Positions 23,409 to 40,405 of a DNA stretch of 49,763 bases are shown here, in pieces (within the stretch, counting starts at the first letter, position 1; every line of letters begins with the position of its first letter). The stretch covers positions 1-49,763 of the IMG/VR virus record IMGVR_UViG_3300032805_000009; one strand, 5' to 3'. The notes under the pieces are model-generated. The model was not told the origin of the DNA, made no database searches, and was given only the letters and a program-made list of their open reading frames with translations. Made by a program: the position numbers and the translations under genes. The DNA comes from a virus.

Positions 23409-23409
23409 T

Positions 23410-24457: not shown

Positions 24458-24533
24458 CGAAGTTGGTGCGCTACAGACCGACATCAACACCAAGGTCAAC
24501 GGCTGGATCACCATGCTGCAGGCGATCCAATGA
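24282..24533 (+). CDS. Small helical protein overlapping the holin gene (83 residues)
   Basis: ATG 24282 follows GGAGAT by 4 bp. The product (MADPVVKAAVPALVATLQAL onward) is a regular amphipathic helix protein, Ala/Leu/Val-rich without a clear membrane span, ending VNGWITMLQAIQ. It shares 176 bp with the holin frame. A lysis-timing role is possible from its place in the cassette; no family recognised. Confidence 0.7.
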   Translation: MADPVVKAAVPALVATLQALQTFMANLGTDPAQVPAKLPGALQVFLGTVELQFPQLVTSEVGALQTDINTKVNGWITMLQAIQ

Positions 24534-24763
24534 GCGTGCTCGCACTGATCAGCACCATCAACTCCCTCATCGACGGGGGCGAGAGCCTCGCCAAGGTGGT
24601 CGAGTACGTGAAGAACTCGCCGCTTGGCAAGAAGATCGAGGCGGATCATCAGGCCGAAGTCGCTGAGTTTGTCGCCCAGGCAAAGCGCGACTATCCCAAC
24701 ATGCCGCTCTCCAATGCTGAGGCGATGGAGAATCTGAAGACGATGGGGGTTCAGAGTAATTGA
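24530..24763 (+). CDS. Small lysis-cassette protein of unknown function (77 residues)
   Basis: Starts with an ATGA overlap. Helical and charged (LISTINSLIDGGESLAKVVEYV, later EADHQAEVAEFVAQAKRDYP), no membrane segment. It overlaps the TTG start of the following hydrolase by 4 bp, indicating coupled translation. Function unknown. Confidence 0.7.
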   Translation: MSVLALISTINSLIDGGESLAKVVEYVKNSPLGKKIEADHQAEVAEFVAQAKRDYPNMPLSNAEAMENLKTMGVQSN

Positions 24764-26515: not shown

Positions 26516-28562
26516 TCTCTCCGATGGGATGGACGTCGCCCCAGCTCACACTGGAGACCTTCAAGCCAAAAGGTATTGTTAATGGATCGGGATAGGGGAC
26601 GACGACGGAGTTGGCAGCGGCGGTGATGGCAGGTATCAGTTCGTGTAGTTTGTGTGTGGGTACTTGCAGGCAGAGGCTATCATGGACTTGCAGCAGAACG
26701 TCAAGGCCCATTAGGTAGAGCTTCTCCCAGATGCGGTTTATGACGAGCGCGACTGTTGATTGTGGCACCCAAGCAAGTGCCTCTGGAAGAAGTCCATCGA
26801 TGCGATCAAATATGTACCAACGGTATCCGAAGCGATTCTCAATGAACTTATGGGTTCGGATCTGACGCTCAGTTCGAGTGTGCCATTCGTGAATGCCCGG
26901 ATGCGCACCGAGCCAAAGGGCTTGGGCTCGATCAATCTCATGCACAGTTCGTCCAGTGCTTGCAGCAACAGTTCGGCTTCCGGCCCCGTAGTTGGTCGCG
27001 TGACAAAATGTTTTAGCGAATTCGCGAGCGTGCTTAAGGGGTCCTCGGTGGTCGAGGTATCTGGGGTGTCCATCAACTAACTCCTCTAGTGGCGGCGGCT
27101 CACGATTATCAAGCACAAAAGCATTAAGCAGGTGGATATCAGCGCCCATACGAAGAGCGCTCTTGAGACTTGCATCGTCTGCCTCCCAGGCAACTACTTG
27201 CAGGTCAGCTCGATCGAGGTCACCGTCAATCCAGGTATAACCCGGATCTGGAACAAACATCGATCGTAGGTTGGGGAGGTTAAAAGCGTTAACCATTCCA
27301 CCAACTCCAACACGGCTTCGAGCCTTGCCCGCTGACTTGCTTTTGTCGGAAGGGATAGTCTGCAGGTTGCACCCTCCCCCGAAGGCGTTAGTGCTCGATG
27401 ACAGGCGGTACGTCTTTGGTGCTGATGTTCCACTTGCAGATCCTCCAATGTTGAATGAGCAGCGCATGCGGCCGTCGCTATCCAGCTCGGCCATCACGAA
27501 GTTGGTTTTGATCAGGGCGAAGGTGCGGATGTCGGCGATCGCGCTCACCAGGGGGCGCAGCAGCGGCTCGCGGCGGCCGATCGTCTGCAGCGCTTCATCA
27601 TCGAGCGTGAGCTTGCCGGTGCCGCGCTTGAGCACTGGACGCTGGCGCAGATCCTGATAGAACAGCGCCTTCATCTGCGGGGTGCTGCGCACGTTGAGCG
27701 GGTGGCCGACCGCAGCCTCGATGTATTGCTGGCGCTCTTTGATCGCTGCGGTCAGCTCTTGTACAAGCTGCCGTCGGCGTTCACGATCGACAGCGACCCC
27801 CCTTTGCATCGCCTGCAGCACGGGCCAGAACATCGCCTGCTGAGCTGCATGAGGCCCCGTAAGCCGTAGTTGAGATACCACCTGCTCAAGTGCGCTCGCC
27901 ACTTCATAGGTGTGTACGCAGTCCAGGCAGTTATAGCGCCACCATTGGCGCGCATCGTCTGCTGACAGGGGGTTGATGTTTTTGCCTTCGTCTTTCCAGT
28001 ACACATAGTAGTCGCAGTACATCGAAGCTAGGTGAGCGAGCGACTTCGGCTGATCAGCAAACACCGCGTGCTGGCTGATCATCGTGTCTTGCGTGACGTG
28101 CGGCGTGAAGTGCCAGTCCCGGTACGTGTACTGCGCGTCGTAGAGGAGGTTTTGGCCGACGACCTGCACGTTGCGGTTGGTGAGCAGTCGATAGAGATGC
28201 CAGACAATATTGGTTTCGTCGGCGTGACTGTAATAATGGCCCCCAGTCCAGCTAACGAAGGGAATGCAGATCGCGTCAGTTCGACTCCAAGCGAGGCCTG
28301 CGACAGCAATATGTCCTGCTCTAGTTTCGAGATCAAAGGCGAGTCGTAGGGGATCTCGGTGCATACTTCTAACGTATAGTTGATAGAGAACTCGTATCGT
28401 GTCTTCATAGCTGGGTGCCACCATGAATTGGTAGTTGGGGATGGCGTAGGGTTGGTCGCGGTGCTTGCGGGCGCGCTTCAGGTCATGCACAGTGATGGCG
28501 CGCAGCGACCAATCACGCAGCACCGCGGCCGGATGGTAGGTGGGGATACAACGAAATTTCAT
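26475..28562 (-). CDS. Family A DNA polymerase carrying the last motif of a uracil-DNA glycosylase at its N-terminus
   Basis: 695 residues from ATG 28562, which overlaps the HNH stop as ATGA. Residues 1-20 (CIPTYHPAAVLRDW) are the terminal motif of a family 4-type uracil-DNA glycosylase, whose remainder is encoded at 28981-29415. Next comes a 3'-5' exonuclease with DLET (77-80), QNLLYD (137-142) and YNCLD (210-214), then a PolA domain with motif A at 448-460, motif B Arg513/Lys517/Asn524-Tyr525-Gly526 and motif C QVHDS (625-629). Motif A reads DLDRADLQ where most PolA enzymes have DYSQIELR, so Ser, Gln and Glu are all replaced. Main replicative polymerase of the phage. Confidence 0.9.
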   Translation of the reverse strand: MKFRCIPTYHPAAVLRDWSLRAITVHDLKRARKHRDQPYAIPNYQFMVAPSYEDTIRVLYQLYVRSMHRDPLRLAFDLETRAGHIAVAGLAWSRTDAICIPFVSWTGGHYYSHADETNIVWHLYRLLTNRNVQVVGQNLLYDAQYTYRDWHFTPHVTQDTMISQHAVFADQPKSLAHLASMYCDYYVYWKDEGKNINPLSADDARQWWRYNCLDCVHTYEVASALEQVVSQLRLTGPHAAQQAMFWPVLQAMQRGVAVDRERRRQLVQELTAAIKERQQYIEAAVGHPLNVRSTPQMKALFYQDLRQRPVLKRGTGKLTLDDEALQTIGRREPLLRPLVSAIADIRTFALIKTNFVMAELDSDGRMRCSFNIGGSASGTSAPKTYRLSSSTNAFGGGCNLQTIPSDKSKSAGKARSRVGVGGMVNAFNLPNLRSMFVPDPGYTWIDGDLDRADLQVVAWEADDASLKSALRMGADIHLLNAFVLDNREPPPLEELVDGHPRYLDHRGPLKHAREFAKTFCHATNYGAGSRTVAASTGRTVHEIDRAQALWLGAHPGIHEWHTRTERQIRTHKFIENRFGYRWYIFDRIDGLLPEALAWVPQSTVALVINRIWEKLYLMGLDVLLQVHDSLCLQVPTHKLHELIPAITAAANSVVVPYPDPLTIPFGLKVSSVSWGDVHPIGESDAQELQRLAGGV

Positions 28563-29041
28563 AGCCAGGGCCACGCGCGCCGAGCCGCAATCAGCTGATA
28601 GATATAAGCCCGCGCCACACCATACTCCTCAGCTAGACGGCGGGCTGGCTCACCAGCCTTCATGCGATCGCGGATCTTCAGCACCTGCGCGGCTGACAGT
28701 TTAGCTCTTGGATGTCGGCTGCCGCGTAGTGAACGCCCGTGATTGATCATGTCAGCCGAATTTTGTTTCGGCGTACCTTCATACAGGTGCGCTGGGTTAA
28801 CACAGTTTCTGGTACCGCAGCGATGTAGCACCCAGCCCTTGGACTTTCCACGAGTGAGTGCCTGCACTACACGATGCACGCGCTGCTGGTGGCCGTACAG
28901 CCCATAACCGTCCTTGTCGGTCGGCCCGGTCCAAAGCCAGCAGTCTCCTGGTGCACGAACTGATTTGGCATAGATCTCAGCTAGCCGTTCAACGCGGCTC
29001 GCATTTCGTTGGTATCGACGTCGAGCATCGAGCCTCTCCAT
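28559..29041 (-). CDS. HNH homing endonuclease inserted into the UDG-polymerase locus
   Basis: 160 residues. Start ATG 29041 is preceded by GGGGGA at a suitable distance. HNH core: CWLWTG, RVHRVV, then HRCGTRNCVNPAHL, the Cys-x4-Cys-Asn form, and TPKQNSADM. A C-terminal helix-turn-helix (KLSAAQVLKIRDR, RRLAEEYGVARAYIYQL) would read the target site. It overlaps the glycosylase part by 61 bp and the polymerase start by 4 bp, leaving no room for a separate intron core, so it looks like a free-standing endonuclease that has split one gene into two, as mobE splits nrdA in phage Aeh1. Confidence 0.85.
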   Translation of the reverse strand: MERLDARRRYQRNASRVERLAEIYAKSVRAPGDCWLWTGPTDKDGYGLYGHQQRVHRVVQALTRGKSKGWVLHRCGTRNCVNPAHLYEGTPKQNSADMINHGRSLRGSRHPRAKLSAAQVLKIRDRMKAGEPARRLAEEYGVARAYIYQLIAARRAWPWL

Positions 29042-29415
29042 TTGCCTATCCCCCACTGTCCGGTTAAAGCCCACATAGCGACGTTGCCTAGTGGGATGAT
29101 CATTGAAGGCTGAGCCTGTTCTATCTCAGCGATCAGCAAAATAAATCCTTCGCGCACGCAAGGTAGCACCCAGCGATCGCGCAGCAGCACATGCTCGCTA
29201 GTCAGCGCTTTCTTGCTGCGGGCGAAAAATTGGGTGATGTCGTTTCTAGGCGGTCTCACTTTACAGACATTAGTCACGACACATTCAGTGCGGCTAATCC
29301 CAGCTTCACCCAACATTCGATCGAGTTCCTGGCCCGAGGCGCCGACAAATGGCCTGCCGAGCCGCTCTTCTTCGGCGCCTGGGGCTTCGCCAATAAGCAT
29401 TACCTGACCAGCCAC
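28981..29415 (-). CDS. Uracil-DNA glycosylase family 4-like, N-terminal part
   Basis: 144 residues. VMLIGEAPGAEEERLGRPFVGASG (5-28), TNVCKVRPPRND (48-59), a further Cys at 86, and MIIPLGNVAMWALTG (105-119) with IGKWRGS (123-129) are the ordered motifs of Fe-S-type (family 4) uracil-DNA glycosylases. The final His-Pro motif is missing here and is found at the start of the polymerase frame 419 bp downstream. The N-terminal Cys pair of bacterial family 4 enzymes is also absent. Activity would require assembly of the two parts; otherwise this is a remnant. A role in rejecting uracil or in polymerase function is inference. Confidence 0.85.
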   Translation of the reverse strand: MAGQVMLIGEAPGAEEERLGRPFVGASGQELDRMLGEAGISRTECVVTNVCKVRPPRNDITQFFARSKKALTSEHVLLRDRWVLPCVREGFILLIAEIEQAQPSMIIPLGNVAMWALTGQWGIGKWRGSMLDVDTNEMRAALNG

Positions 29416-29861
29416 TGTATCCCCCGGCGGATGCGCAGCACCTGCGTCTTTTCGATGCCGTGCTCCTTGGCGACCTGCCGCGATGGCCGGATGTCCGCTG
29501 CAATTTTGCGCACCTGCCCGGTCGTTAGCTTTGCCCGCCCGTTACGCGCACCGCTGCGAGAAAGTGCACCGCTTCGACCAGCGTGGGCTACATTGTCAGC
29601 AGGCGTACCAACCAAAATATGGCGGGGGTTGCAGCAACTAGCGTTGTTGCAGAGGTGCATGGCTACCTCAAGCGGGAAAGGCAGCAACCGGCGCTTATAC
29701 TTCTCCTGTGCAACAATCCTATGCACGTACCACTGCCGGCCTTCAGCACCGAACACGCCGTGCCCAGCGTGGCTCTTGCTGCCCTGCCAGGGCCAGCACT
29801 CGTTGATGCCTCGCCGCAGCACAAATTTGTGGTAGGCAAACCTGCTTTGCCGTTTCATCAC
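29400..29861 (-). CDS. Second HNH homing endonuclease
   Basis: 153 residues: CWPWQG, YVHRIVAQEKY, then HLCNNASCCNPRHILVGTP in the Cys-x4-Cys-Asn HNH arrangement, and a C-terminal helix-turn-helix (KLTTGQVRKIAADI, RQVAKEHGIEKTQVLRI) like that of the HNH gene at 28559-29041. It lies directly upstream of the glycosylase fragment and overlaps it by 16 bp; its own start overlaps the preceding stop (ATGA). Two HNH genes bracketing one exon-like piece suggest repeated invasion of this locus. Confidence 0.85.
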   Translation of the reverse strand: MMKRQSRFAYHKFVLRRGINECWPWQGSKSHAGHGVFGAEGRQWYVHRIVAQEKYKRRLLPFPLEVAMHLCNNASCCNPRHILVGTPADNVAHAGRSGALSRSGARNGRAKLTTGQVRKIAADIRPSRQVAKEHGIEKTQVLRIRRGIQWLVR

Positions 29862-30199
29862 TGCTTCCTCGGCATCCCCGCACCCTCAAGGATGCGCTGG
29901 CGGTGCATGTTGGACTCGAATTCGTTGATCGCCTTGGTGAGGGCTTCGACGAAGCCTGCGATCGCATCCGGTAGTGCAGGGCCGGGCAGATCGAACACCA
30001 GCGGGACCTGCATGGTGCGGCCTGGGCCTTGCAGCTGAATGTTGGTGCGGCCCTTGAAGAAGGGCACGCGGGCGATGTCGTAGTCGCCCTCCGCATTGAT
30101 GGGGGCGTGGCAGAGGATCTCGCCGTTCAGTAGGTCGGTGACGGTGGTGACGTCCCACAGGTTGGCGGTATCGAGGCCTTTGATTGTGAACTCAGCCAT
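29858..30199 (-). CDS. Replication-region protein of unknown function (113 residues)
   Basis: Beta-rich first half (FTIKGLDTANLWDVTTV, NIQLQGPGRTMQVPLVFDLPG) followed by a helix (AIAGFVEALTKAINEFESNM) and a basic end. It sits between the SSB-like protein and the HNH/glycosylase genes, so a nucleic-acid role is plausible. No family recognised. Confidence 0.7.
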   Translation of the reverse strand: MAEFTIKGLDTANLWDVTTVTDLLNGEILCHAPINAEGDYDIARVPFFKGRTNIQLQGPGRTMQVPLVFDLPGPALPDAIAGFVEALTKAINEFESNMHRQRILEGAGMPRKQ

Positions 30200-30262
30200 G
30201 TGTACTCCGATGCGCGTGTATGCGGAATGCGCGCCCCTCCGTGTGCGTGGCTGCGAAGGGGG

Positions 30263-30724
30263 TTACGGCGCAGTCACAGCACCCACTTCTGAGTAGATCT
30301 GCTGATCGTTGCCGATGCGGTGCTTGATCACGATCTTGATCTGCCGGCCCACCAGCATGCGAGCGCTGAAGGGCTGCCCTTTCTGGTTCAGGCCGGTGGC
30401 CTCCCGGTAGATGCGCAGCCGGAAGTTGCGTCCAGGACCCAGGTCAAGCGAGCCGCCATCGGTCAGGTCCAGCATGATGCTGTCCTTCATGCGCACCACC
30501 GGCGGGATGCCCTGCTGCTGCAGCTGCGGGGTCGTTTGCGCCTCCAGCTGCACGTCGAACTTCTTGCCACTCTTGGTGCCATCGCGCGACTGCCAGTCGT
30601 TCTGCTGCAGGTCGGTGATGGTGGCGATCAGCTCAGTGCCGGCTGGGATCGGCGGGCTGCGCTCTAGCGCCTCGGTGGTGATTGCGTCCAGGAAGTTCTG
30701 CGGATCAAAACTCACAGTATTCAC
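30263..30724 (-). CDS. SSB-like (DUF669-type) protein
   Basis: 153 residues. The sequence has the strand pattern of an OB-like barrel: TELIATITDLQQND, KKFDVQLEAQT, SIMLDLTDGGSLDLG, then RQIKIVIKHRIGN and a final short strand. In many phages a protein of this size and layout sits next to a Sak4-type ATPase and serves as single-strand DNA binding protein; here the Sak4-like gene is directly upstream. Assignment is by context and outline, not by clear motif. Confidence 0.55.
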   Translation of the reverse strand: MNTVSFDPQNFLDAITTEALERSPPIPAGTELIATITDLQQNDWQSRDGTKSGKKFDVQLEAQTTPQLQQQGIPPVVRMKDSIMLDLTDGGSLDLGPGRNFRLRIYREATGLNQKGQPFSARMLVGRQIKIVIKHRIGNDQQIYSEVGAVTAP

Positions 30725-30736
30725 AATGATCTCCTT

Positions 30737-31591
30737 TTACTTGGCTACGTTGGGTGTTAGCCGACCGCCGCGCGATTGCCATTTGGTCAGGATCTGCGCG
30801 AAGTCGGGCTTGATGGTTGGGCTATCAGGTAGGTTGCGGCACTTAAGGTCCGCCTGGGCGTGGGCTGTGCACCAGTTGTACTGGCCGGGGCCTTTCTTCT
30901 CAGCCAGCACCACGTCGCTGAACATCGGTGGAAGCTTCGGGGCGAGCTTGCTGCCGAGCGTGGCGACGGTGATCTTGCTGCCGCCGAGCACCTGATCGGT
31001 CTCGCGCTCGATGTGAGCGGTGAGGATAAAGTGGCAGCGGCAGCCGTCGGTGAGCATGCGGATCAGCTTTTCGATCTGATCCATTGCGATACCCCAATCG
31101 CTTTGGCTCTTAACAGGCTTACCGCCGACAACAAGGCTGAGAGCAATCGGGTTAACGCCAGACAGACTATCAATGACAAGAGCACGATCAGGACCCCAAT
31201 CAGTAACAGGACCATGAGAGGTACCGCTACGATCGTCTGGAAAGTTATTGAGGGCTTTAAGTAGGTCGACGAATTGGTTGTGTTTTCCACGGTTGATGTC
31301 TTGCTGTTTGGCGAGCATGTCGAGGGCGAGGCTGTTGACATTAGTGGCAGCGGCGGCCAGTACGTCGAATGTGATGGCACTACGGGGCAGCACATGCCAG
31401 TGCAGGTTTCCCGGCACGGCCAAGTGACGATCCGTCCAGTATCCAAGCAGTGTCTCAAGGCCGTTTTCTGTGAATAGGACATAGGTTTCTACTCCCGCAT
31501 CGACCAGCGTGCCGATGCTATGGGTCTTGCCGGTGCCGGCAGGCCCTTCAACCAGAATGTTGAATCCAGGCAGTAGGGAGGGTTCATTCAA
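30737..31591 (-). CDS. Sak4-like RecA-fold ATPase
   Basis: 284 residues. Walker A GPAGTGKT (16-23), Walker B ALVIDSLSG (137-145), a downstream ILTAHIERET strand and GSKLAPKLPPMFSDVV near 230, as in phage AAA_24/Sak4 single-strand annealing-type recombinases. Works with an SSB-like protein in recombination and probably replication; both neighbours fit. The middle of the gene (about 31080-31480) uses noticeably more A/T-ending codons than its flanks, a sign of intragenic exchange. Confidence 0.75.
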   Translation of the reverse strand: MNEPSLLPGFNILVEGPAGTGKTHSIGTLVDAGVETYVLFTENGLETLLGYWTDRHLAVPGNLHWHVLPRSAITFDVLAAAATNVNSLALDMLAKQQDINRGKHNQFVDLLKALNNFPDDRSGTSHGPVTDWGPDRALVIDSLSGVNPIALSLVVGGKPVKSQSDWGIAMDQIEKLIRMLTDGCRCHFILTAHIERETDQVLGGSKITVATLGSKLAPKLPPMFSDVVLAEKKGPGQYNWCTAHAQADLKCRNLPDSPTIKPDFAQILTKWQSRGGRLTPNVAK

Positions 31592-31893
31592 GGCAGCCTC
31601 CCGCCCTTAGGGCTGATACGGGCCAACTCGTCAAGGGCTTCGGTGAGTGCATCGTTGTGCGGCACCTCGGGCGTGGCGGCGCGCTGGTAGTACTTCTCGT
31701 GGGCTTGCTCTTCCAACGTGCGCTCAGGTGGAGGCGGTGGTGGGTCTATTTGATCCGCCGAAGTGGTCAGCCCAACAGCCAGGGCCCGGGCTGTTGCAGG
31801 AGGCAGGCTGAGCCACGACAGTGGTCGATCGATCCACACCACCACCTCCCCCCGATACGTGTCGAGGCGGAATTTAACTGGAGTGTCGTCCAT
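31588..31893 (-). CDS. Small protein of unknown function with a poly-Pro stretch (101 residues)
   Basis: ATG with AGGAGA upstream. N-terminal strands (VKFRLDTYRGEVVVWID), a Pro run (PPPPPP about 52-57) and a helical C-terminus. It overlaps the Sak4-like gene start by 4 bp, indicating coupled expression with the recombination genes. No family recognised. Confidence 0.7.
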   Translation of the reverse strand: MDDTPVKFRLDTYRGEVVVWIDRPLSWLSLPPATARALAVGLTTSADQIDPPPPPPERTLEEQAHEKYYQRAATPEVPHNDALTEALDELARISPKGGRLP

Positions 31894-31903
31894 GCAAGAT
31901 CTC

Positions 31904-32242
31904 CTATTTGTGCTTGTTCAGTTCGCCCAACAGGTAGCGCGTGGCTTCCTGAGAAGCTGCGCTGTTGTCGTGCCGGTCGGGATGGCACAGCTGCAACAGG
32001 CGGCGCAGCATCGTGCGGTCCAACGATGGGCCGGCGGGCTCACGACGAGCAGCAGCATGACCGGCGGCGAAGCCTGCCTTGCGCGCCTCGTCAACCATTC
32101 GCTGTACGTAGCAGCGCCAGCACTCAACGAAGGTTGAGCCTTGCTTGACCGGGCCGCCGCACGTAACGCACGCACGAGCCTTTGGGGTGTGGGAGCTGAT
32201 TGCAAACTCCAGCGGTTCATCAAGCAGCCGTTGTGGATTCAT
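31904..32242 (-). CDS. Zinc-ribbon plus J-domain-like protein
   Basis: 112 residues from ATG 32242, which lies 23 bp inside the nuclease gene; a longer in-frame start further upstream was rejected because that part only mirrors the nuclease frame. CVTC (25-28) and CWRC (41-44) form a four-Cys ribbon. The C-terminal LLQLCHPDRHDNSAASQEATRYL has the His-Pro-Asp signature (87-89) and following helix of a DnaJ J-domain. J-domains stimulate Hsp70 (DnaK); phage lambda uses host DnaJ/DnaK at its origin, so a role in recruiting DnaK to replication is an attractive inference. Confidence 0.65.
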   Translation of the reverse strand: MNPQRLLDEPLEFAISSHTPKARACVTCGGPVKQGSTFVECWRCYVQRMVDEARKAGFAAGHAAARREPAGPSLDRTMLRRLLQLCHPDRHDNSAASQEATRYLLGELNKHK

Positions 32243-33185
32243 GGCTTCGTTCGCTAGTAGTGCTTCCAGTCCCACTGACATTGGGTAGCTCCACACTGGT
32301 ACGGGTGAGCGGGTCCCAGCGGCGGTGCGTGAACTTGACCTGCAGGTGCGCCACGGGGTCCTGAGACAGACAGGCATCGCGGTACTGGCAGCCGCCGAAA
32401 TCGGTGCACGCATGATCGAGGGCGTGACGGTAGTAGCCACGGCGGTAGTCAAAGAGCATCAGCTCGATAGTCTCTAGCAGCTCCTCGTACCAGCGCTCGA
32501 TCATCCACGGGGCGGTGTAGACCGGGACCTGCTGGGTCTCGAACTTGGTCTTAAGGATGCTCACGCCGCGCACGATCGTGCCAGCGACGTCGATGCCGCT
32601 AAGCTTGGCTCCCCAAGCATAGCCGGTGAACTGCGCGCGTAGATCCCACTGCCGGCTCCAGGTGGGCCCGAGCGAGCTGGTGGTCTTCTCGTCGCACAGG
32701 TACTGGGCGCCGGCAAAGTTGACGATGGCATCGGCGCGGCCCGCGTAGATCAATGGGTCGCCGCTGACTGGATGGGCAATGGGCAGCGGGTGGGCAAAGC
32801 CGAACTCGATGGCTCGGCGGCCGCTCGGCAGCAGGATGGGCTCAAAGTTCCCATCGCGCAGCAGCGGATAGTTGGCGTAGTAGAACTCGAAGGCGCCCTT
32901 CATGCGGTCGAGCGTCTTGGCGATGTAGGGCGGGGGCACGTAGTCGCCCCAGAACTCCTCCAGCGCCTTGAGGCCCTGATAGATGGCGAACTCGGCCGAC
33001 GTCTGATTCTCGTAGAAGCAGCGCCGTGTAACCTCCAGTGCGTGTGCGAAGGCGCCGCCGGCGTGAAGGTGAGGCGATGGGTCGGGCGATGCCCAGCAAT
33101 CCAGGTACTGGTACTTGAAGAGCGTGCCGCACGATTTGTAGGCGGACAGCATCGAGCTGTCGAGGACAGATGGAAAGAACTGCAT
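32220..33185 (-). CDS. PD-(D/E)XK nuclease, AddB/Cas4-like with Fe-S cysteines
   Basis: 321 residues. LSAYKSCGTLFKYQYL (Cys19) at the start and Cys260, Cys266, Cys272 (DHACTDFGGCQYRDAC) near the end match the split 1+3 Cys pattern that holds a 4Fe-4S cluster in AddB- and Cas4-type exonucleases. Active-site residues: Asp152 (AGRADAIV), Asp165/Glu166-x-Lys167 (CDEKTT) and a later Gln/Tyr in AQFTGYAWG. Expected to resect DNA ends and make the single strands used by the Sak4-like ATPase encoded downstream. Confidence 0.85.
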   Translation of the reverse strand: MQFFPSVLDSSMLSAYKSCGTLFKYQYLDCWASPDPSPHLHAGGAFAHALEVTRRCFYENQTSAEFAIYQGLKALEEFWGDYVPPPYIAKTLDRMKGAFEFYYANYPLLRDGNFEPILLPSGRRAIEFGFAHPLPIAHPVSGDPLIYAGRADAIVNFAGAQYLCDEKTTSSLGPTWSRQWDLRAQFTGYAWGAKLSGIDVAGTIVRGVSILKTKFETQQVPVYTAPWMIERWYEELLETIELMLFDYRRGYYRHALDHACTDFGGCQYRDACLSQDPVAHLQVKFTHRRWDPLTRTSVELPNVSGTGSTTSERSHESTTAA

Positions 33186-33209
33186 GGAACCCCCGGCTAA
33201 CGGATGTGA

Positions 33210-33497
33210 TCAGGTCATGATCTGGTTGACTAAATCGAGTTGCTGGCCGACGGGCTTGACCTTGCGGCGCGGCGCACAGGCTGCCGCCAGCTCAGCATGG
33301 TCGTAGTCGCAGCCCCCGAGGCAGCCGGCAAGGTGCTCGCGGGCGGCCTTGATGGTCAGGCGCTTGGGGCGCGGCCGAGCGGCGAAGCGGTCCTCGCGCA
33401 GTGCAGCGATGGCGTTCGCGTAGTCGGCGAGGGTGATGGTGCCGTCAGCGCATTGCTTGCGCCACTGGGCAAGCTGTTCGCGGCCAGCGGCGGTCAC
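33210..33497 (-). CDS. Protein of unknown function, cysteine-containing (95 residues)
   Basis: ATG overlaps the stop of the ribbon-helix-helix gene (ATGA). Helical start (REQLAQWRKQCADGTITLADY) then a basic linker and CLGGCDYDHAELAAAC with three Cys. Probably an early accessory protein; no family recognised. Confidence 0.65.
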   Translation of the reverse strand: MTAAGREQLAQWRKQCADGTITLADYANAIAALREDRFAARPRPKRLTIKAAREHLAGCLGGCDYDHAELAAACAPRRKVKPVGQQLDLVNQIMT

Positions 33498-33676
33498 TTG
33501 GATTCCTGTTTGACGAGGTAGCCCTTCAATAGGCGCACGATCAGGTCCTGATAGCGACCTTTGGGCACACGTTGCTCATTGTGGTCGAACAGGTGCCGGT
33601 CGAGTCGGCGCCGCAGCGATTGTGGCAAGTGGAGGTTGAGCCGCGTGATCGGCTCATCCGATGCTTGTTGTGGCAT
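33494..33676 (-). CDS. Ribbon-helix-helix-type small regulator
   Basis: 60 residues. ITRLNLHLPQSLRRRLDRHL then a loop and GRYQDLIVRLLKGYL give the strand-helix-helix outline of Arc/CopG-type DNA binding proteins. It is the first gene of the replication transcription unit, preceded by GGGAGAT and by a promoter-like region with GTAGGCGC repeats and a palindrome, suggesting that it regulates its own operon. Confidence 0.65.
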   Translation of the reverse strand: MPQQASDEPITRLNLHLPQSLRRRLDRHLFDHNEQRVPKGRYQDLIVRLLKGYLVKQESK

Positions 33677-33701
33677 TGCGATCTCCCTGCGTTATGTCGC
33701 G

Positions 33702-33744
33702 AATGTAGGCGCTTGACGCCCGCATTGCAACGTAGGCGCCTACA
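33702..33744 (-). promoter_or_regulatory. Candidate promoter and operators of the replication operon
   Basis: On the minus strand TTGCAA (33730-33725) and TACATT (33707-33702) are 17 bp apart, an acceptable sigma-70 pair. The perfect palindrome GTAGGCGCCTAC (33732-33743) lies just upstream of the -35 and a half-site TGTAGGCGC (33704-33712) covers the -10. A ribbon-helix-helix protein encoded just downstream is the natural candidate to bind. Confidence 0.5.
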
Positions 33745-33819
33745 TGGTTACTTCTTAACCACCTACGCTATTAGCTCGTAGGCTCCGGCAGAGGCGCGCG
33801 CGTCAGCACGTAGAAGAAA

Positions 33820-33911
33820 TGTCGTGCCAGATCAAGAATCAATCAAGAGAAGAGAAGAAGAAGAGGTTCGGCGAGGAAGAACAGCCGCCCGATCAGAGGT
33901 GTCGTGCCAGA
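33820..33911 (-). repeat. CT/GA-rich element C flanked by 12-bp direct repeats
   Basis: TGTCGTGCCAGA occurs at 33820-33831 and 33900-33911, 80 bp apart. The segment between includes a GA-rich tract (33843-33867) whose complement contains CTCTTCTTCTTC and TTCTCTTCTCTTG, like elements at 4713-4810 and 44946-45016. The minus strand just outside reads GTGCACCGCCGACGCC, also nearly repeated at 45012-45026. Confidence 0.7.
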
Positions 33912-33930
33912 GTTGGCGTCGGCGGTGCAC

Positions 33931-33961
33931 AAAAAAAGAGCCGCACATCGCTGGGCGGCTC
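33931..33961 (-). terminator. Rho-independent terminator of the accessory gene unit
   Basis: On the minus strand a perfect 7-bp stem GAGCCGC/GCGGCTC (33961-33955 and 33944-33938) with a 10-nt loop is followed directly by seven T (33937-33931). It lies about 140 bp after the stop of the last accessory gene (34103) and would separate that unit from the replication operon. Confidence 0.85.
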
Positions 33962-34102
33962 AAAGTTGCTAGCACCTGCGTAGTGGGAACAACGGGCCAG
34001 TGCTAGCTTTCAGACCGTGGAGTCACGCGGCCTGTGTTCAATGCGGGGCCCCTGCAGGTCCGGTTCCCTGCTTCGCCGGGGGCCAGCGGCGGCTCGGCTC
34101 GA

Positions 34103-34327
34103 TCAGGGTAGCTGTTGTTGTGGTGGCTGTCCACCTGACTCGCTCTCCGCTTTACGTTTCCGCTTCTCGCGCAGCGCCTCACGACGTCCGCATTCGTAGC
34201 CGTCGAACCACTTCCACCAGCCGCTGTCATCAAAGTCCCGGTTGTAGCCGTGACCCCATCGCCTCGCATAAGCAGCCAGCGCTCGCAGCGAGAACTCATC
34301 CCAATCTGGTTTGCGTTTCTTAGCCAT
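34103..34327 (-). CDS. Small basic accessory protein (74 residues)
   Basis: Starts KKRKPDWDEFSLRAL, contains an aromatic GYNRDFDDSGWWKWFDGYE segment and a Lys/Arg-rich C-terminus. Overlaps the upstream gene by 8 bp, last gene before the terminator. No family recognised. Confidence 0.65.
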   Translation of the reverse strand: MAKKRKPDWDEFSLRALAAYARRWGHGYNRDFDDSGWWKWFDGYECGRREALREKRKRKAESESGGQPPQQQLP

Positions 34328-34472
34328 CGGACCCGTTCTCCGGAGGTTTCTGCGCCTCGATCTCCTTCAGCAGCAGGTGCAAGTCGGTCGCCTCATTGAG
34401 CAGTCCAGAGTCGAAGTAGCGCCGCGTCGGCTCGGGCGTTGGCTTGAAGCGTGAGAATCGGAATAGTTTCAT
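34320..34472 (-). CDS. Accessory protein of 50 residues
   Basis: ATG 34472 overlaps the preceding stop (ATGA) and GGAGAGCGAG lies upstream. Basic start (MKLFRFSRFKPTPEPTRRYF) and an acidic-helical end (LHLLLKEIEAQKP). Tightly coupled to both neighbours. Function unknown. Confidence 0.6.
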   Translation of the reverse strand: MKLFRFSRFKPTPEPTRRYFDSGLLNEATDLHLLLKEIEAQKPPENGSDG

Positions 34473-34771
34473 GGTGCTGACTCGCTCTCCGGTCGTAGAT
34501 CTCGGTACCAACCCCACTTCTCAGCCTTGCGGCGGAACGCGGCTAACGATTGGTCGCGGGCTCGCTCAGTCTCAAACCACTGGAACTGGCGGTGCCATTT
34601 GCGTTCCCATAGCCACTTCACTTCATAGCTATATCCGTAAGGCTTCGCTACCCTGCGATGTGGCTTTGCCGCTGGTGTAGCGCGCTCAGGCTCAGGATCG
34701 GTCTTACGGCCGTCGCTTGGACGGACCCGACCCAATCGCTTAGCGTCCTTGCCTACGTCGTAGTAACTCAT
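34469..34771 (-). CDS. Accessory protein rich in Arg, Lys and Trp (100 residues)
   Basis: Basic N-terminal half and a Trp-rich helical part (EVKWLWERKWHRQFQWFETE) ending KAEKWGWYRDL. The upstream GAGAACGGGTCCG sequence is also found before the ATG at 34327, so two translation starts share an 11- to 13-bp leader. Likely nucleic-acid or membrane contact by charge; no family recognised. Confidence 0.65.
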   Translation of the reverse strand: MSYYDVGKDAKRLGRVRPSDGRKTDPEPERATPAAKPHRRVAKPYGYSYEVKWLWERKWHRQFQWFETERARDQSLAAFRRKAEKWGWYRDLRPESESAP

Positions 34772-34793
34772 GTGCCTGCGGACCCGTTCTCAG

Positions 34794-35459
34794 CTACTCG
34801 CCAATCTTGATGCCGCAGCGGATGCAGTAGCCACCGCCCGGCAGGAAAGTGTGCCGCCCGGCCTCGCAGAATCCGGGATGCGTAGCCGACGTTTCCTCCG
34901 GTGGCCGTTCCTCCAGCCCTCTATTGACGCGCTTGCGATGTAGGTAGCACCCATCGGCACACCTTGGATCAAGGACAGCTGCCGTCTCGTCAGCGGGTCC
35001 GAGCGCCTGAGCGGCGATAGCCCGCATATCGTCGGCATCCTGTTTGTAGGTGCGGAATGACGATGATCTCAGGTCCCGAATTTGCGCCAGCGCAGCGCGC
35101 AAGGCGCGCACTTCGACCCAGACATTGCCGCGGCTGCCGATCTGAAGTCTCTCCAGCTCGCGCTGCAGGCGGTAGATAATCGCGTCATTAGCATTTAGCT
35201 CGTCGACCAAGGCTTGGCAGCGAGCCTGCAGCCGCTCGATCTCGTCGGCGGCCCTGCCGGCCATATCACCAATAGGTCCATCCGGGCAGTCATCGGCGGT
35301 ATGGCGCAGCTCGGCTACCAGCGAATTTGAGGTCCGAGAGTCGGCCCCCGTCGGAGGAATCAAACCTCCTGTTCGGCCTAGACCGTCAGCTTGGCCTTCG
35401 CTGGTGGTTGTCATCGGCTCTGCCTCAGCACGGGGATTCTCGGTCCGCTGTTCGCTCAT
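34794..35459 (-). CDS. Coiled-coil protein with C-terminal Cys/His zinc-type motifs (221 residues)
   Basis: ATG 35459 overlaps the upstream stop. Polar, disordered-looking start, a central coiled coil (AADEIERLQARCQALVDELN, LQRELERLQIG) and a C-terminus with CADGCYLHRKR and CEAGRHTFLPGGGYCIRCG, a plausible zinc ribbon. Largest member of the accessory block; role unknown, host-protein binding would fit the architecture. Confidence 0.65.
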   Translation of the reverse strand: MSEQRTENPRAEAEPMTTTSEGQADGLGRTGGLIPPTGADSRTSNSLVAELRHTADDCPDGPIGDMAGRAADEIERLQARCQALVDELNANDAIIYRLQRELERLQIGSRGNVWVEVRALRAALAQIRDLRSSSFRTYKQDADDMRAIAAQALGPADETAAVLDPRCADGCYLHRKRVNRGLEERPPEETSATHPGFCEAGRHTFLPGGGYCIRCGIKIGE

Positions 35460-35797
35460 GGTTGCTCCGCCGGCACCAGCTTCGCGAAACATACTGGGCA
35501 TTCCCCGCCCCATCGCGCAGCGACCCCTTTAAATTCACATCTTTGGCACCGAACGGCCGCGTTATTCGGCTGGACCCGCGCGGCCTCGGGCTCTTGGGGA
35601 CTTTCGTGGTGGTGCCCCCAGCCTGTTGTTCGTATCGCCTTCTCGATATCCACGTCCATCCAGGGCTCGTGCCATTCGCCGTGGACGCGGCAACGCCACC
35701 ACGGGCGGACCCAGCCTGGCGGGCAGATGCAGTGCTCAGGATCGTCCCTGTGGCCCCTGTAGCGCTGTTCCGATGTCCGGGAGTCAGGAGCGGACAT
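35456..35797 (-). CDS. Zinc-ribbon accessory protein (113 residues)
   Basis: ATG 35797 (an in-frame codon 33 bp upstream was not chosen as it lies deep in the preceding gene). HCICPPGWVRPWWRCRVHGEW gives a Cys/His cluster and CQRCEFKG ... CPVCFAK a classic two-knuckle zinc ribbon. Ends in an ATGA overlap with the next gene. Function unknown. Confidence 0.65.
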   Translation of the reverse strand: MSAPDSRTSEQRYRGHRDDPEHCICPPGWVRPWWRCRVHGEWHEPWMDVDIEKAIRTTGWGHHHESPQEPEAARVQPNNAAVRCQRCEFKGVAARWGGECPVCFAKLVPAEQP

Positions 35798-36005
35798 AGT
35801 CAACTCCCTTGCCGCGTGGTCGCATCGCATGAAGCGCCTTCAGCAACTGCTGGCGGGTGATGCGAGCTTGGCCGCCGCAATCGAACACCACTGTAATGCT
35901 GCCCTCGTTGACGTAAAACCACGCTTTCTTGGCATACCCCATAGCGCGGCAGTCCACCGGCTCCCTGCGGTTGTAGCGCGGTTCAGTAGTCCACTGCTCA
36001 GCCAA
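35784..36005 (-). CDS. Small accessory protein (73 residues)
   Basis: AWFYVNEGSITVVFDCGGQARITRQQLLKALH suggests a compact beta-hairpin plus helix. Overlaps both neighbours by a few bases. No family recognised. Confidence 0.55.
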   Translation of the reverse strand: MAEQWTTEPRYNRREPVDCRAMGYAKKAWFYVNEGSITVVFDCGGQARITRQQLLKALHAMRPRGKGVDYVRS

Positions 36006-36231
36006 GGGGGAACTCCAGTAGGCGCACCTTGCGCTCTAGCGCATCGATGCGGTCCCGTAACTCATCGTTTTCGGCGCAGACCTTGCCGTAACACGCCTCA
36101 ACCGCCCGGGCATCCGAGCGGAGTCGTTCGATTTCGGCGTGCAGCGGCTTGGTAGCCGCGTCCTGAATGTTCTGGATTGCAGCACGCAACGACTGGTTGG
36201 CCCATTCTGCGTCGCTCGGTTCTGCCGTCAT
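35998..36231 (-). CDS. Coiled-coil accessory protein (77 residues)
   Basis: ATG 36231 preceded by GAGGAAG; a longer frame upstream overlaps the zinc-knuckle gene and was not chosen. Heptad-like pattern through ENDELRDRIDALERKVRLLE; ends in an overlap with the next start. Probable dimer. Function unknown. Confidence 0.6.
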   Translation of the reverse strand: MTAEPSDAEWANQSLRAAIQNIQDAATKPLHAEIERLRSDARAVEACYGKVCAENDELRDRIDALERKVRLLEFPLG

Positions 36232-36461
36232 CGCCGCTTCCTCGCCAGCCTCTTCAGCACAGGACAACTGCGCTGGTTGTGTCCAAGCTCCCGACAAAAG
36301 CCGCAGCGGCGCTCAACCATCGTCACCCTCACAGGCTCGAAAGAGATCCAGAGTTTTGCCGGCGCCTTGACCCGCACCCGCTTGGCCTGCTGCGCGCGGC
36401 AACGCTCCAGGTAACGCTCGATTTCGGGTATCGGTTCCGATGTCCGGTTACTTTCTGCCAT
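36228..36461 (-). CDS. CCHC zinc-knuckle protein (77 residues)
   Basis: Basic protein with Cys53-x2-Cys56-x4-His61-x4-Cys66 (CGFCRELGHNQRSC), the exact spacing of a retroviral-type zinc knuckle, flanked by Arg-rich segments. Zinc knuckles bind single-stranded RNA or DNA. The gene overlaps the PEP-CTERM-like gene upstream by 14 bp and the next gene by 4 bp. Confidence 0.7.
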   Translation of the reverse strand: MAESNRTSEPIPEIERYLERCRAQQAKRVRVKAPAKLWISFEPVRVTMVERRCGFCRELGHNQRSCPVLKRLARKRR

Positions 36462-36732
36462 GCCTCCCCCTCACCGCCGCCAATCCCCCAACGAGCAGCA
36501 CGAGCGGCGCAAGCGCACCACTCGGGTCGATCTCAGGTACTGCGGTGGGCGCGAGCGCGAAGCTGGTTGCCGGGGGATCGGTGTTGCCCGGCTGACACGC
36601 GTAGCTCGCGCCATTGCCGTTGGCCTGCCAGCATTCGCACCAGCCCGTGTCCCCACAGCCATTAGTGTAGATCTGCGCCTCGGCTGCGCCGCTCAGCATC
36701 AGCCCCATCGCTACGATCTTCCATGCGTTCAT
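36448..36732 (-). CDS. Secreted small protein with Sec signal and PEP-CTERM (VPEID-type) tail
   Basis: 94 residues with an excellent ribosome-binding site (AAAGGAGGT, 5 bp before ATG). Residues 1-19 (MNAWKIVAMGLMLSGAAEA) are a Sec signal peptide with Ala-x-Ala cleavage. The mature part has five Cys in a short segment (GCGDTGWCECW, then YAC). The end reads VPEIDPSG (65-72), a hydrophobic span (ALAPLVLLVGGLAAV) and an Arg-rich tip (RGRHGRK), the three-part exosortase sorting signal. Exosortase substrates are linked to exopolysaccharide. A phage-made one could remodel the surface or block other phages; this is inference. Confidence 0.75.
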   Translation of the reverse strand: MNAWKIVAMGLMLSGAAEAQIYTNGCGDTGWCECWQANGNGASYACQPGNTDPPATSFALAPTAVPEIDPSGALAPLVLLVGGLAAVRGRHGRK

Positions 36733-36749
36733 GTGTACCTCCTTTGCGC

Positions 36750-36854
36750 CTAGTCATCCTCGTCACCTTCTGGCCACTCGGGCTCGGTTTCCATCAGCAT
36801 CGGCCGATTGTCTTCGTCGTCCGATTCGTCTAGCTCGGTCTCCTCGAAGGGCAT
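36750..36854 (-). CDS. Very acidic 34-residue protein
   Basis: Reads MPFEETELDESDDEDNRPML and ends EPEWPEGDEDD: 17 of 34 residues are Asp or Glu and only one is Arg. Its ATG overlaps the preceding stop (TGATG) and it ends 17 bp before the strong ribosome-binding site of the PEP-CTERM-like gene. Charge suggests a DNA mimic or inhibitor of a basic host protein; not provable from sequence. Confidence 0.55.
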   Translation of the reverse strand: MPFEETELDESDDEDNRPMLMETEPEWPEGDEDD

Positions 36855-37132
36855 CAGCTGTCGTCCTTCAGCGGCACCACCGTACGTGTGGCATCGCCGG
36901 GCTGCGCGTTCTCGATAACATTCGCCAGCTTGCGCAGCGACATGGCCAAGCTGATGCAGCCCTCGCGCGGCCCTGCGGTGCGCGCGCCCATGTAGATCGC
37001 CTGATCATCATCGGCTGGCAGCACCACCACCACCGCGCTCGCTACCCAGCTCATGTTGAACAAGATGGTGCTGAGCTGCTCAACCAGCAGCGAGCGCTCG
37101 GGCGATACCTCCAGGTCGCGCTTAATCTCCAT
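36854..37132 (-). CDS. Accessory protein of unknown function (92 residues)
   Basis: Mixed alpha/beta: helix LLVEQLSTILFNMSWV, strands AVVVVLPADDDQAIYM, then LAMSLRKLANVIEN. Starts 11 bp within the preceding gene. No family recognised. Confidence 0.65.
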   Translation of the reverse strand: MEIKRDLEVSPERSLLVEQLSTILFNMSWVASAVVVVLPADDDQAIYMGARTAGPREGCISLAMSLRKLANVIENAQPGDATRTVVPLKDDS

Positions 37133-37238
37133 TGGTGCGCCTGCTGTGCTGTGAGCTGAAGTAGCTCGGGTGCTGCTCGCGTGGCCAATACCGCCGCGCG
37201 CGCCACCACCAATACAGTCGATTGAACCAACGCTTCAT
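37122..37238 (-). CDS. 38-residue Trp/Arg-rich peptide gene
   Basis: MKRWFNRLYWWWRARRYWPR followed by a polar tail; GGAGGGG lies 6-12 bp before the ATG, which overlaps the upstream stop (ATGA). The cationic aromatic pattern resembles membrane- or nucleic-acid-active peptides. Real-gene status rests on ribosome-binding site and tight packing. Confidence 0.55.
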   Translation of the reverse strand: MKRWFNRLYWWWRARRYWPREQHPSYFSSQHSRRTNGD

Positions 37239-37450
37239 GCTCTGCCCCTCCTCACTTGCTCGATCATGTCCTGGTTGAGGGTGATCGCCCGCTCGATGCC
37301 GGCCAGATAGCCGCTCGTCCATGCGCGCGTGAGCATGAGTTCAATGAGCTTGCGTACATCACCATCGCTGGTCGCCATCAGCTCAGCGCGATCGCACACA
37401 GTTTGCGCGTACTCCTGCGCACGATCAGTCACATAGCCTTGATTGCTCAT
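37235..37450 (-). CDS. Accessory protein of 71 residues
   Basis: ATG 37450 with GGGGAGG upstream and ATGA overlap with the helix-turn-helix gene. Helical (DRAQEYAQTVCDRAELM, VRKLIELMLTRAWTSGYLAGIE). No family recognised. Confidence 0.65.
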   Translation of the reverse strand: MSNQGYVTDRAQEYAQTVCDRAELMATSDGDVRKLIELMLTRAWTSGYLAGIERAITLNQDMIEQVRRGRA

Positions 37451-37617
37451 CGAGCCTCCCCGTTGTTCCACGATTCGCCGCGTGCGATGCGGCGGATGGT
37501 CTCATAGCTGACGTGGTAGTCGGCCGCGATCCGCCGGGAGCGCTCGCCTTGCGCGAGTCGCTCCTTGATGCGTCGGACCTTCTCCGCGGTCAGCTTGGCT
37601 GGCCGGGCTATTCTCAT
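37447..37617 (-). CDS. Stand-alone helix-turn-helix protein (56 residues)
   Basis: AKLTAEKVRRIKERLAQGE then SRRIAADYHVSYETIRRIAR is a full helix-turn-helix followed by RGESW. The same module forms the C-terminal DNA-binding domain of the two HNH endonucleases in this genome (AKLSAAQVLKIRDRM; AKLTTGQVRKIAADI), so it may be a domesticated or residual targeting domain acting as a regulator. ATGA overlaps on both sides. Confidence 0.7.
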   Translation of the reverse strand: MRIARPAKLTAEKVRRIKERLAQGERSRRIAADYHVSYETIRRIARGESWNNGEAR

Positions 37618-38006
37618 GCAAGCGACTCCTCGGGCGGCAGTGGCTCGTTCGCCAAGGCCTCCCAGTTGGGCACCGCCGGTGCGTGATAGAGCTGAGCGTA
37701 GCGGCGCAGCCCAGCAGCGCACGTAGCAGCGTCCTCTGCCCAGTACCGGGCCGTGAGTTCGCGCATGCGGTTGTAGAAGGTTACTTGATCGCGCAGCCCC
37801 AGGCGCTTGCAGGGCGTGTCCTTCTCGAAATCCACGATGGACTCGATGACATGGCCGACGGGGCAGCCCGCGAAGCGCCCGATCCATCCGAGCGCGCAGC
37901 CGGGCGTGCCACAGTCAGGCACACGCACGCGGCTGAAATCGAACTGATCGGGATACCGCTCGATATGGTCAGCGGCGCGCATGATTGCAGTATAGATATC
38001 AGCCAT
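37614..38006 (-). CDS. Cys-containing accessory protein (130 residues)
   Basis: VPDCGTPGCALGWIGRFAGCPVG (about 29-51) gives three closely spaced Cys, followed by a helical part (QVTFYNRMRELTARYW) and AATCAAGLRRYAQ. A PGCALGWI-type motif occurs in several uncharacterised phage proteins. ATG overlaps the preceding gene. Function unknown. Confidence 0.65.
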   Translation of the reverse strand: MADIYTAIMRAADHIERYPDQFDFSRVRVPDCGTPGCALGWIGRFAGCPVGHVIESIVDFEKDTPCKRLGLRDQVTFYNRMRELTARYWAEDAATCAAGLRRYAQLYHAPAVPNWEALANEPLPPEESLA

Positions 38007-38427
38007 TGCTGATCTCCTTCTTGCCTACCTCCCAGGTCGGTATCAACGTGCCCTGCTTCCAGAGCGCGAAGATGCTGCGCTGCGCCTGGAACTCATTGCC
38101 CTTCTGCAAGCTGACGATACCTTCGTAGGTGATGGTATCGCCCTTGCTCTCGATCAACTGCTTGCGCAGCTTGCCGAGCGCACCAAACCCGCGGCCCTGA
38201 AATGCCGTGCGGTTGATGTTGTACTTGCGGCCTGCGCATGCGAGTCGGCCGGTGCCGGTCCATCGAATGCCGTGCCGTTTGCTCGTCGATGACTCGACGG
38301 CCGCGCCGTTGCGGCTGCGGTGTGGCGTAGAAAGCAGTGTAACTGCCTCCAGCAACATGCTGTCTCGCAAGGGCTTTGGCAGCAGTGGAAATAACTCGTT
38401 CCAATCAATATGCGACTGAATGTGCAT
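37999..38427 (-). CDS. Accessory protein adjacent to the iteron array (142 residues)
   Basis: Start ATG 38427 with GGAGGG upstream; a longer frame upstream was rejected. The protein is basic with a helix LLPKPLRDSMLLEAVTLL and a C-terminal AQRSIFALWKQGTLIPTWEVG. It is the first gene after the iteron region (58 bp away) and could be an origin-binding or regulatory protein; no family recognised. Confidence 0.65.
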   Translation of the reverse strand: MHIQSHIDWNELFPLLPKPLRDSMLLEAVTLLSTPHRSRNGAAVESSTSKRHGIRWTGTGRLACAGRKYNINRTAFQGRGFGALGKLRKQLIESKGDTITYEGIVSLQKGNEFQAQRSIFALWKQGTLIPTWEVGKKEISNG

Positions 38428-38484
38428 GGTCCCTCCGTGAATGAAGGGGCTAAGACTACAACAACAACAACGCCGATGCAATCA

Positions 38485-38600
38485 TTAGGCATATGAGGCA
38501 TTAGGCATACGCGCCGTTAGGCATATGAGGCATATGACGCATTAGGCATATGAGGGGTTAGGCATATGCCGGTTAGGCATATGAGCTTGAGGCATATGCC
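38485..38600. repeat. Iteron array, eight copies of a TTAGGCATATGAGG-like repeat
   Basis: Copies begin at 38485, 38501, 38517, about 38528, 38542, 38558, 38573 and about 38588. The core GGCATATG is exact in seven and GGCATACG in one; TTA precedes six copies. Spacing is 11 to 16 bp. Arrays like this bind initiator proteins at plasmid and lambdoid phage origins, or repressors at operators. Two DnaA boxes follow 37 bp later. Confidence 0.9.
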
Positions 38601-38637
38601 GAGCGCATGGTGCGGCGCGGCGGCCCTGGGGATGGCC

Positions 38638-38657
38638 TGTGGATAAGCTGTGGATAA
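38638..38657. promoter_or_regulatory. Two DnaA boxes next to the iterons
   Basis: TGTGGATAA (the reverse complement of the consensus TTATCCACA) at 38638-38646 and 38649-38657, 11 bp apart, so both lie on the same face of the helix. Confidence 0.85.
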
Positions 38658-38944
38658 CGCAAAACGCGGGCACGGGGCATCCTCGGGTGACGCGCCCCGT
38701 GCGCAGACTCAGGTCCGCTAGTTGTGATGGGCTGACATATCAGTCAGCCGTACTCGCTTGCCGTACGTCACCTCCACAAATGTGCCAGCGTCAGAATGGC
38801 GCCGGCGGTTCGCATGCGGCCGTCTGGCCGCGCGCGTACGTTGCGTGCTTGGGTATTCACCTCCAGTGATTGCTTCAGAATCGAACACAGGGCCGCTCGT
38901 GTCGGGCCCCCCTACAGAACGTAAGGGGGACCGTAGCTAGCGTC

Positions 38945-40405
38945 CTAGCAAACGCTGCGCCGAATGGCGCGCGTGTCCATCTTGGTCTGTTGGATCAGCT
39001 CAGCATTCCCGTTGAACGCGCGATGAACAACCTCGCTCAGCGCGACCTCAAGGTCAGGCCGCTTTTCGGCGACTGGCCGCTCGGCGGCCTTGAGAATCGC
39101 CATCTGACGCGACATTGTCAGCGCGGCCTGTAGCAGCGCGTCGGGGCTCAGGTTGACAACCTTGGTCCCCTCGGCCTGCAAGCTCAGCTGCGCGAGCTTC
39201 GCCCGTTTGACAACCTCAGCCACCACCGCAGGGATGCAGCCGGCCAGCACATTGCCAACCTCGGTCAGGTTGGCGCGCGGGTCGATCGCACCCTTGCCGT
39301 ATGCGTACAGCAACCGCTGTACCGCATGCGCGTCTGGCGCCGTAACCTCGATGACAGCATCCAAGCGCCCAGGTCGGAGCATTGCAGGATGAATGCCATC
39401 CAGATTGTTGGTTGTTAGGACAACAATCAGGTTAGCGTCTTTGCTGTCAATGCCGTCGATGGTGTTGAGAATGTCGTCCATCTCAACGGTACGCTCGCCC
39501 GTCACCGCGCGGTCAATGTCTTCACAGAAGATTGCGCACGCTGGCGACTGGTATCGCTTCGCAAACGCAATGGCAGAGGCAAGCTCGGCCGCACGTTCCA
39601 CATACAGGAACGTAATGCCGTGCTTGACTGCCAGCATTGATGCCACCGTGGCGGCCAGCGTTTTGCCGGTGCCAAAGGTGCCACCGAGCAGAATGCCGCG
39701 CTTTACGGGAATGCCGTTAGCGAGGCAGTCAGCTGCGCGCGTGATCGGCGTGAACAGATTAGTCCGCACGGCCTGCTCGACATCAGCCGAGAAAATCAGG
39801 TCGGACTCGCGCACACCGCTCGTGTCGATGAACGTCACTTGCGGCATGGTCTGCACGTCGCCGTCGCTGTCAGTGAACCGGATGCGAATGGCCTTGCCTC
39901 GATAGATGCTTGCGGCCTCTATCTCAGCGCGAACCACTGCAAACAGCTGCAGCACGCTTTCCTCGTCCATGCGCTTGACCTCGGCGCTGAGCACAAAGCA
40001 CGCCATGCCATTCTGTACAGTGGCGCCCGTATCAATGTGGCCTGTGACGTTGGGAAGCGTGAAGCGCCCCCAGCCGACTTTCGCCCACTGATCCGGACCA
40101 ATCTGCACATTCATCATGCGCGGCGGATTGTCCCCGAAAAAGCCCGGAGTCGGCGCAGCTGGCGTCCATCCGTAGATGCGTTCGATTGCGCGCTGAAAGG
40201 CGAATGCGCCATCCAGCGGTAGCACTTCAAACACCTCTTGCAGGGTGCATACCTGTTGCTCGTATTCCATGCGCGACTCTATGAGCTTCACCGCGCCGGC
40301 CAGCGTCATCCGTTGCGGGATGATCAGCTTGTCGCCAGTGCGCTCAACGTCGCTCACAACAACGGGCTTTTTTGCTTTGCTCTTAATTTCATCCAATGTA
40401 GGCAT
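38945..40405 (-). CDS. AAA+ ATPase of FtsH/Cdc48-like type
   Basis: 486 residues. Walker A GGTFGTGKT (241-249), Walker B AIFCEDID (291-298), sensor 1 TTNN (331-334) and an FtsH/Cdc48-like RPGRLD arginine-finger segment (344-349), followed by a helical lid. The N-terminal ~230 residues are unassigned and no protease or transmembrane part follows, so it may be an unfoldase or remodeller, perhaps acting on host or origin proteins. It ends about 290 bp from the DnaA boxes. Single gene with its own leader. Confidence 0.85.
   Translation of the reverse strand: MPTLDEIKSKAKKPVVVSDVERTGDKLIIPQRMTLAGAVKLIESRMEYEQQVCTLQEVFEVLPLDGAFAFQRAIERIYGWTPAAPTPGFFGDNPPRMMNVQIGPDQWAKVGWGRFTLPNVTGHIDTGATVQNGMACFVLSAEVKRMDEESVLQLFAVVRAEIEAASIYRGKAIRIRFTDSDGDVQTMPQVTFIDTSGVRESDLIFSADVEQAVRTNLFTPITRAADCLANGIPVKRGILLGGTFGTGKTLAATVASMLAVKHGITFLYVERAAELASAIAFAKRYQSPACAIFCEDIDRAVTGERTVEMDDILNTIDGIDSKDANLIVVLTTNNLDGIHPAMLRPGRLDAVIEVTAPDAHAVQRLLYAYGKGAIDPRANLTEVGNVLAGCIPAVVAEVVKRAKLAQLSLQAEGTKVVNLSPDALLQAALTMSRQMAILKAAERPVAEKRPDLEVALSEVVHRAFNGNAELIQQTKMDTRAIRRSVC

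Follow-up and report, generated by a model that had tools for sequence, protein, structure and literature searches.

Exosortase substrates are known as surface and matrix proteins of their bacterial hosts. In the PEP-CTERM/EpsH model, the signal peptide takes the protein across the inner membrane, the C-terminal tail holds the sorting motif at the outer face of that membrane, and the exosortase cuts the protein and hands it on (Haft 2006, PMC1569441). The mature parts of PEP-CTERM proteins usually share little homology; phages are nowhere mentioned in the paper (PMC1569441). The 22 publications in the literature searched that name both phage and PEP-CTERM, judged mainly by their titles and abstracts, describe no phage-encoded exosortase substrate. 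Our literature search returned no paper naming VPEID-CTERM (TIGR04161) and no experiment on exosortase E (XrtE; TIGR04162).

The window analysed here is a virus record of 49,763 nucleotides that encodes a terminase, a portal protein, DNA polymerase A, a primase and an AAA protein. In a replication-type neighbourhood, with the AAA gene on one side and an exonuclease gene on the other, a minus-strand gene (36448-36732) encodes a 94-residue protein comprising a signal peptide, a 45-residue Cys-rich domain and a VPEIDP exosortase-type tail. This ORF is real, as judged by its Shine-Dalgarno sequence, gene overlap and codon-position GC. The Shine-Dalgarno sequence is strong (AGGAGGT, 36737-36743, minus strand; AAAGGAGGT lies 4 bases 5' of the ATG), the VPEID gene shares its last 14 bases with the start of the following gene (36228-36461, minus strand), and third-position GC is 0.77, like that of the remaining window genes. 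The record contains no exosortase gene, and the window protein would therefore depend on a host exosortase.

Several neighbouring genes have features of their own. The 77-residue product of the following gene, directly 3' of the VPEID gene, contains a C-x2-C-x4-H-x4-C knuckle, a CCHC zinc-knuckle pattern, and has no match in NCBIfam. Directly 5' is a very acidic 34-residue ORF (MPFEETELDESDDEDNRPMLMETEPEWPEGDEDD; 36750-36854, minus strand) whose start overlaps the stop of the gene at 36854-37132. The AAA protein (38945-40405, minus strand) is about 50% identical to proteins of Erwinia, Pseudomonas and Salmonella phages (phrog_10440); those phages were otherwise not seen to resemble the window phage, a possible sign that the AAA gene has been exchanged.

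The 94-residue translation reads MNAWKIVAMGLMLSGAAEA-QIYTNGCGDTGWCECWQANGNGASYACQPGNTDPPATSFALAPTA-VPEIDPSGALAPLVLLVGGLAAVRGRHGRK, the last part being the tail; all of its segments are given here on the minus strand. Residues 1-19 (MNAWKIVAMGLMLSGAAEA; 36676-36732) are a predicted signal peptide, read from the sequence, with an A-x-A before QI (AEA-QI) and no lipobox. The mature domain (residues 20-64; 36541-36675) has four Cys, and a structure model places three short strands at residues 21-50 with medium confidence (pLDDT 75-79) and a flexible linker at residues 57-66. The VPEIDP motif (residues 65-70; 36523-36540) is followed by a hydrophobic span (residues 73-87; 36472-36516), modelled as a helix at residues 75-90, and by the basic end RGRHGRK (residues 88-94; 36451-36471). 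The signal peptide, VPEID motif, hydrophobic span, Arg cluster and ribosome-binding site that the sequence-only reading had described are all confirmed in the sequence. Comparison of the protein with the PDB, by sequence and by fold, gave nothing significant. Whole-protein relatives are absent from the viral contigs and phage records searched, so the VPEID gene is not conserved within its phage group, and a simple scan of DNA-polymerase relatives found no further proteins with a signal peptide and a C-terminal span.

The same tail occurs in bacteria. A fixed-spacing DNA pattern run over one genome per bacterial species gave 39 loci, 27 of which are C-terminal tails on mostly small proteins with a signal peptide, the rest being internal or chance matches. 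These 27 loci come from 23 genomes of soil Gammaproteobacteria and Acidobacteria (Granulicella, Bryobacterales), and their signal-peptide proteins end in [AV]PEID...RGR with the spacing PEIDP-x17-RGR. Exosortase (PF09721) is present in 21 of the 23 genomes, and XrtE (exosortase E/protease, TIGR04162) is above cut-off in 20, with a split match in one more. In the order of one tail genome, G041, TIGR04162 is found in 6 of 196 genomes including G041 itself, and so in 5 of 195 others. Setting 20/23 against 5/195 gives a Fisher p=9e-21, a test that pits two phyla against one order; for this reason the fairer figure is that for proteobacteria alone, in which XrtE is present in 4 of 6 tail genomes against 5/195 (p=3e-5, a value that leaves aside the acidobacterial background rate). 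Among 14 XrtE loci examined (L202-L215), 10 have a tail gene next to XrtE, and in a gammaproteobacterial set the same holds for 7 of 9 loci. G033, G092 and G194 are common to both sets, and G092, G137, G186 and G219 were selected by XrtE and not by motif. At L207, five tail genes stand in tandem beside XrtE. Co-occurrence and the close neighbourhood of the genes both link the PEID tail class to exosortase E, and comparative genomics suggests here that XrtE would process such tails.

Some XrtE-associated acidobacterial members have only 51-70 residues (L169:3806-3961, L158:957-1139, L207:239-1279, L211), with the signal peptide followed by the PEIDP tail and a mature part that is nearly absent. 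Up to five such near-tail-only proteins occur in tandem by XrtE, and what product they would deliver after cutting is a puzzle.

The window protein carries the marks of this class, having the [AV]PE[IFM]D motif, the hydrophobic span and the C-terminal basic end, and, by inspection of the sequence, its N terminus has the basic, hydrophobic and AEA regions of a signal peptide, a further trait of the class. A tail HMM was built solely from six XrtE-adjacent tails (L241-L246), which were found without the window sequence serving as a motif and none of which matches the search motif. It ranks 36448-36732 (minus strand) top of all window ORFs (32.5 bits, E=3.3e-9), with the second-best ORF at E=0.73, and none of 20,000 shuffled tails equalled the score of the window tail. 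A chance ORF at this position is ruled out by these two results. Another HMM, made from 38 host tails, scored the same ORF at E=1.2e-9, though for that one the motif had been picked with the window sequence in view. Among 369 gammaproteobacterial genomes the closest protein is an XrtE-adjacent 74-residue protein of G041 (E=2.7e-8).

Curated models behave differently from the HMM of XrtE-adjacent tails. Pfam and NCBIfam gave no usable match to the 94-residue protein, and no curated sorting model detects its tail: it falls below detection by TIGR04161 (cut-off 33 bits), and the PEP-CTERM models PF07589 and TIGR02595 do not match it, PEID replacing PEP. The sequence-only reading had proposed a search against the PEP-CTERM family models, and had counted a lack of any sorting-model match against itself. 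That lack is literally what the curated models return, yet it does not refute the assignment, because the same models also leave this variant under their cut-offs when it occurs in host tails next to XrtE; TIGR04161 gives bacterial PEIDP...RGR tails 13-25 bits or no match. XrtE-adjacent tails from G137 and G186, in the sampled order, do exceed the TIGR04161 cut-off, which indicates that these XrtE neighbours are true VPEID-CTERM proteins, with PEIDP...RGR as a variant form occupying the same genomic position. This much of the sequence-only reading is supported: the phage encodes a secreted protein that bears an exosortase tail of the VPEID type, the class being linked to XrtE by co-occurrence and adjacency. 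As a separate point, the TIGR04161 cut-off misses XrtE-adjacent PEIDP...RGR tails of Acidobacteria and soil Gammaproteobacteria, which an extended model would catch.

We consider it about 70% probable that the window protein is a small exported substrate of host exosortase E whose disulfide-rich domain is placed on the envelope of the infected cell; that it would mask or change the surface there and so limit superinfection is a guess. The tail could instead be a plain type I membrane anchor that leaves the domain in the periplasm with no role for an exosortase, since a signal peptide and a hydrophobic C-terminal span suffice for this; the motif, spacing and basic end nevertheless follow XrtE-linked tails closely and are needless for an anchor, which makes this reading improbable. 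Somewhat less improbable, though still unlikely, is that the protein is a decoy whose tail occupies host XrtE and stops the maturation of host surface proteins, with the middle domain acting as no more than a spacer. Many of the host proteins consist of little beyond the tail, the 51-residue L169 protein having scarcely anything between signal peptide and tail, and the phage protein combines small size with a strong ribosome-binding site. Against this, the middle has four Cys and a fold modelled at medium confidence, which would be odd for a spacer, and the window tail resembles that of a normal substrate and not an altered one.

From the type of tail, such uncultured phages would be expected to infect XrtE-positive hosts. 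By tetranucleotide usage the host locus nearest the window is the G041 tail locus, L164 (r=0.75), and the two have nearly equal GC (0.619 and 0.616). Several unrelated viral contigs match the window as well as L164 or better, so this likeness is weak host evidence. Comparison of window DNA (20001-40000) with 196 genomes of the G041 order gave short, chance-like matches and nothing convincing. A CRISPR-spacer link through L251 (33 bases, 97%, the best spacer-sized match) was rejected, the stretch examined containing no CRISPR repeats.

Other viral contigs carry sorting tails. A first scan found one further tail with the same PEIDP-to-RGR spacing as the window, in L076, where the protein at 12338-12580 (plus strand) has an APEIDP...RGRR tail and a lipobox-like LLPGC signal. 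The stop of this gene overlaps a small membrane/coiled-coil-like ORF; the two (12338-12771, plus strand) may act together in lysis, or the tail protein may be part of the envelope. A phage protein that has both a signal and a membrane span at its C terminus may be a unimolecular spanin, and the L076 protein, with its lipobox-like signal and C-terminal span, has spanin-like topology. For the window protein a spanin-like role in lysis is very improbable: unimolecular spanins combine a lipobox with a C-terminal span and lie within the lysis cassette, whereas the window protein has AEA-QI in place of a lipobox and the endolysin (23505-24065, plus strand) and likely holin form a separate operon on the other strand.

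In L259, a secreted protein of 189-204 residues (8912-9526, minus strand) ends in APEIDWTRAGLALTLLGGIGLVMRGRARS and lies just upstream of packaging genes. L076 and L259 both carry terminase, and L259 portal too, and their XrtE-type tails sit on unrelated proteins. L012, related to the window phage by its DNA polymerase, encodes a 162-residue protein (4637-5125, plus strand) with a canonical PEP-CTERM tail above the TIGR02595 cut-off but without an evident signal peptide at the start as called; its gene lies upstream of an exonuclease gene, the same type of region as in the window. L153 (1-1423, plus strand) has two consecutive PEP-CTERM-like genes next to a terminase gene that runs on the opposite strand, and these may come from host DNA adjoining a prophage. 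No exosortase was found in L012, L076, L259 or L153, some of which are fragments. No tails came up with a PEP-CTERM DNA pattern set very strictly, and a looser one gave at least three among the 120 matches listed (L280, L329 and L382). The secreted proteins of the viral contigs L329 (11733-12485, minus strand) and L382 (1418-2188, plus strand) end in canonical VPEP...RRR, and their genes may be viral or may stem from flanking DNA. A shared tail with different middle parts suggests repeated, independent capture. We tentatively propose, at somewhat under even odds, that phages infecting exosortase-bearing soil bacteria repeatedly encode exosortase substrates of their own, with varied mature domains and a shared host tail, and remodel the infected-cell surface, for instance so as to shut out other phages.

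For the window protein as an exosortase E substrate, the following sequence of events may be envisaged. Sec would export the 94-residue protein across the inner membrane and the signal peptide would be cleaved; the hydrophobic tail would retain the protein in that membrane with VPEIDP at the outer face; and host XrtE would cut at VPEIDP and pass the 45-residue disulfide-bonded domain to the outer envelope or matrix. The replication-type position on the minus strand, apart from the lysis genes, suggests that the protein acts in the living infected cell before lysis. Our guess is that a surface structure, receptor or matrix, is then masked or changed so that superinfection is limited; receptor masking or matrix change by a 45-residue domain is plausible. 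In making an exosortase substrate, a phage would be exploiting its host's envelope-sorting enzyme, and, if phages repeatedly carry such substrates, this would be a Gram-negative route to exploiting a host surface-sorting enzyme. It would also offer a small handle on exosortase E function and on phage-driven surface change in infected biofilm bacteria.

Compared with PEP-CTERM/EpsH (PF07589, TIGR02595), the window protein shares the three-part tail logic and the signal peptide but has PEID and not PEP, and matches neither model. With VPEID-CTERM/exosortase E (TIGR04161, TIGR04162) it has in common the signal peptide, PEID motif, hydrophobic span, basic end and XrtE-linked class, and differs in that its tail is a PEIDP...RGR variant below TIGR04161 detection and is phage-encoded with no adjoining exosortase. 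The tail closest to it belongs to a 74-residue soil gammaproteobacterial protein (L248:2476-2700, minus strand; APEIDPAGAMAALTLLVGGLAVVRGRYLKK), whose middle is unrelated and whose gene is chromosomal and next to XrtE. The L076 protein (12338-12580, plus strand), although it has a lipobox-like signal and an unrelated middle and comes from an unrelated phage, is likewise phage-borne, and its APEIDP...RGRR tail has a spacing identical to that of the window.
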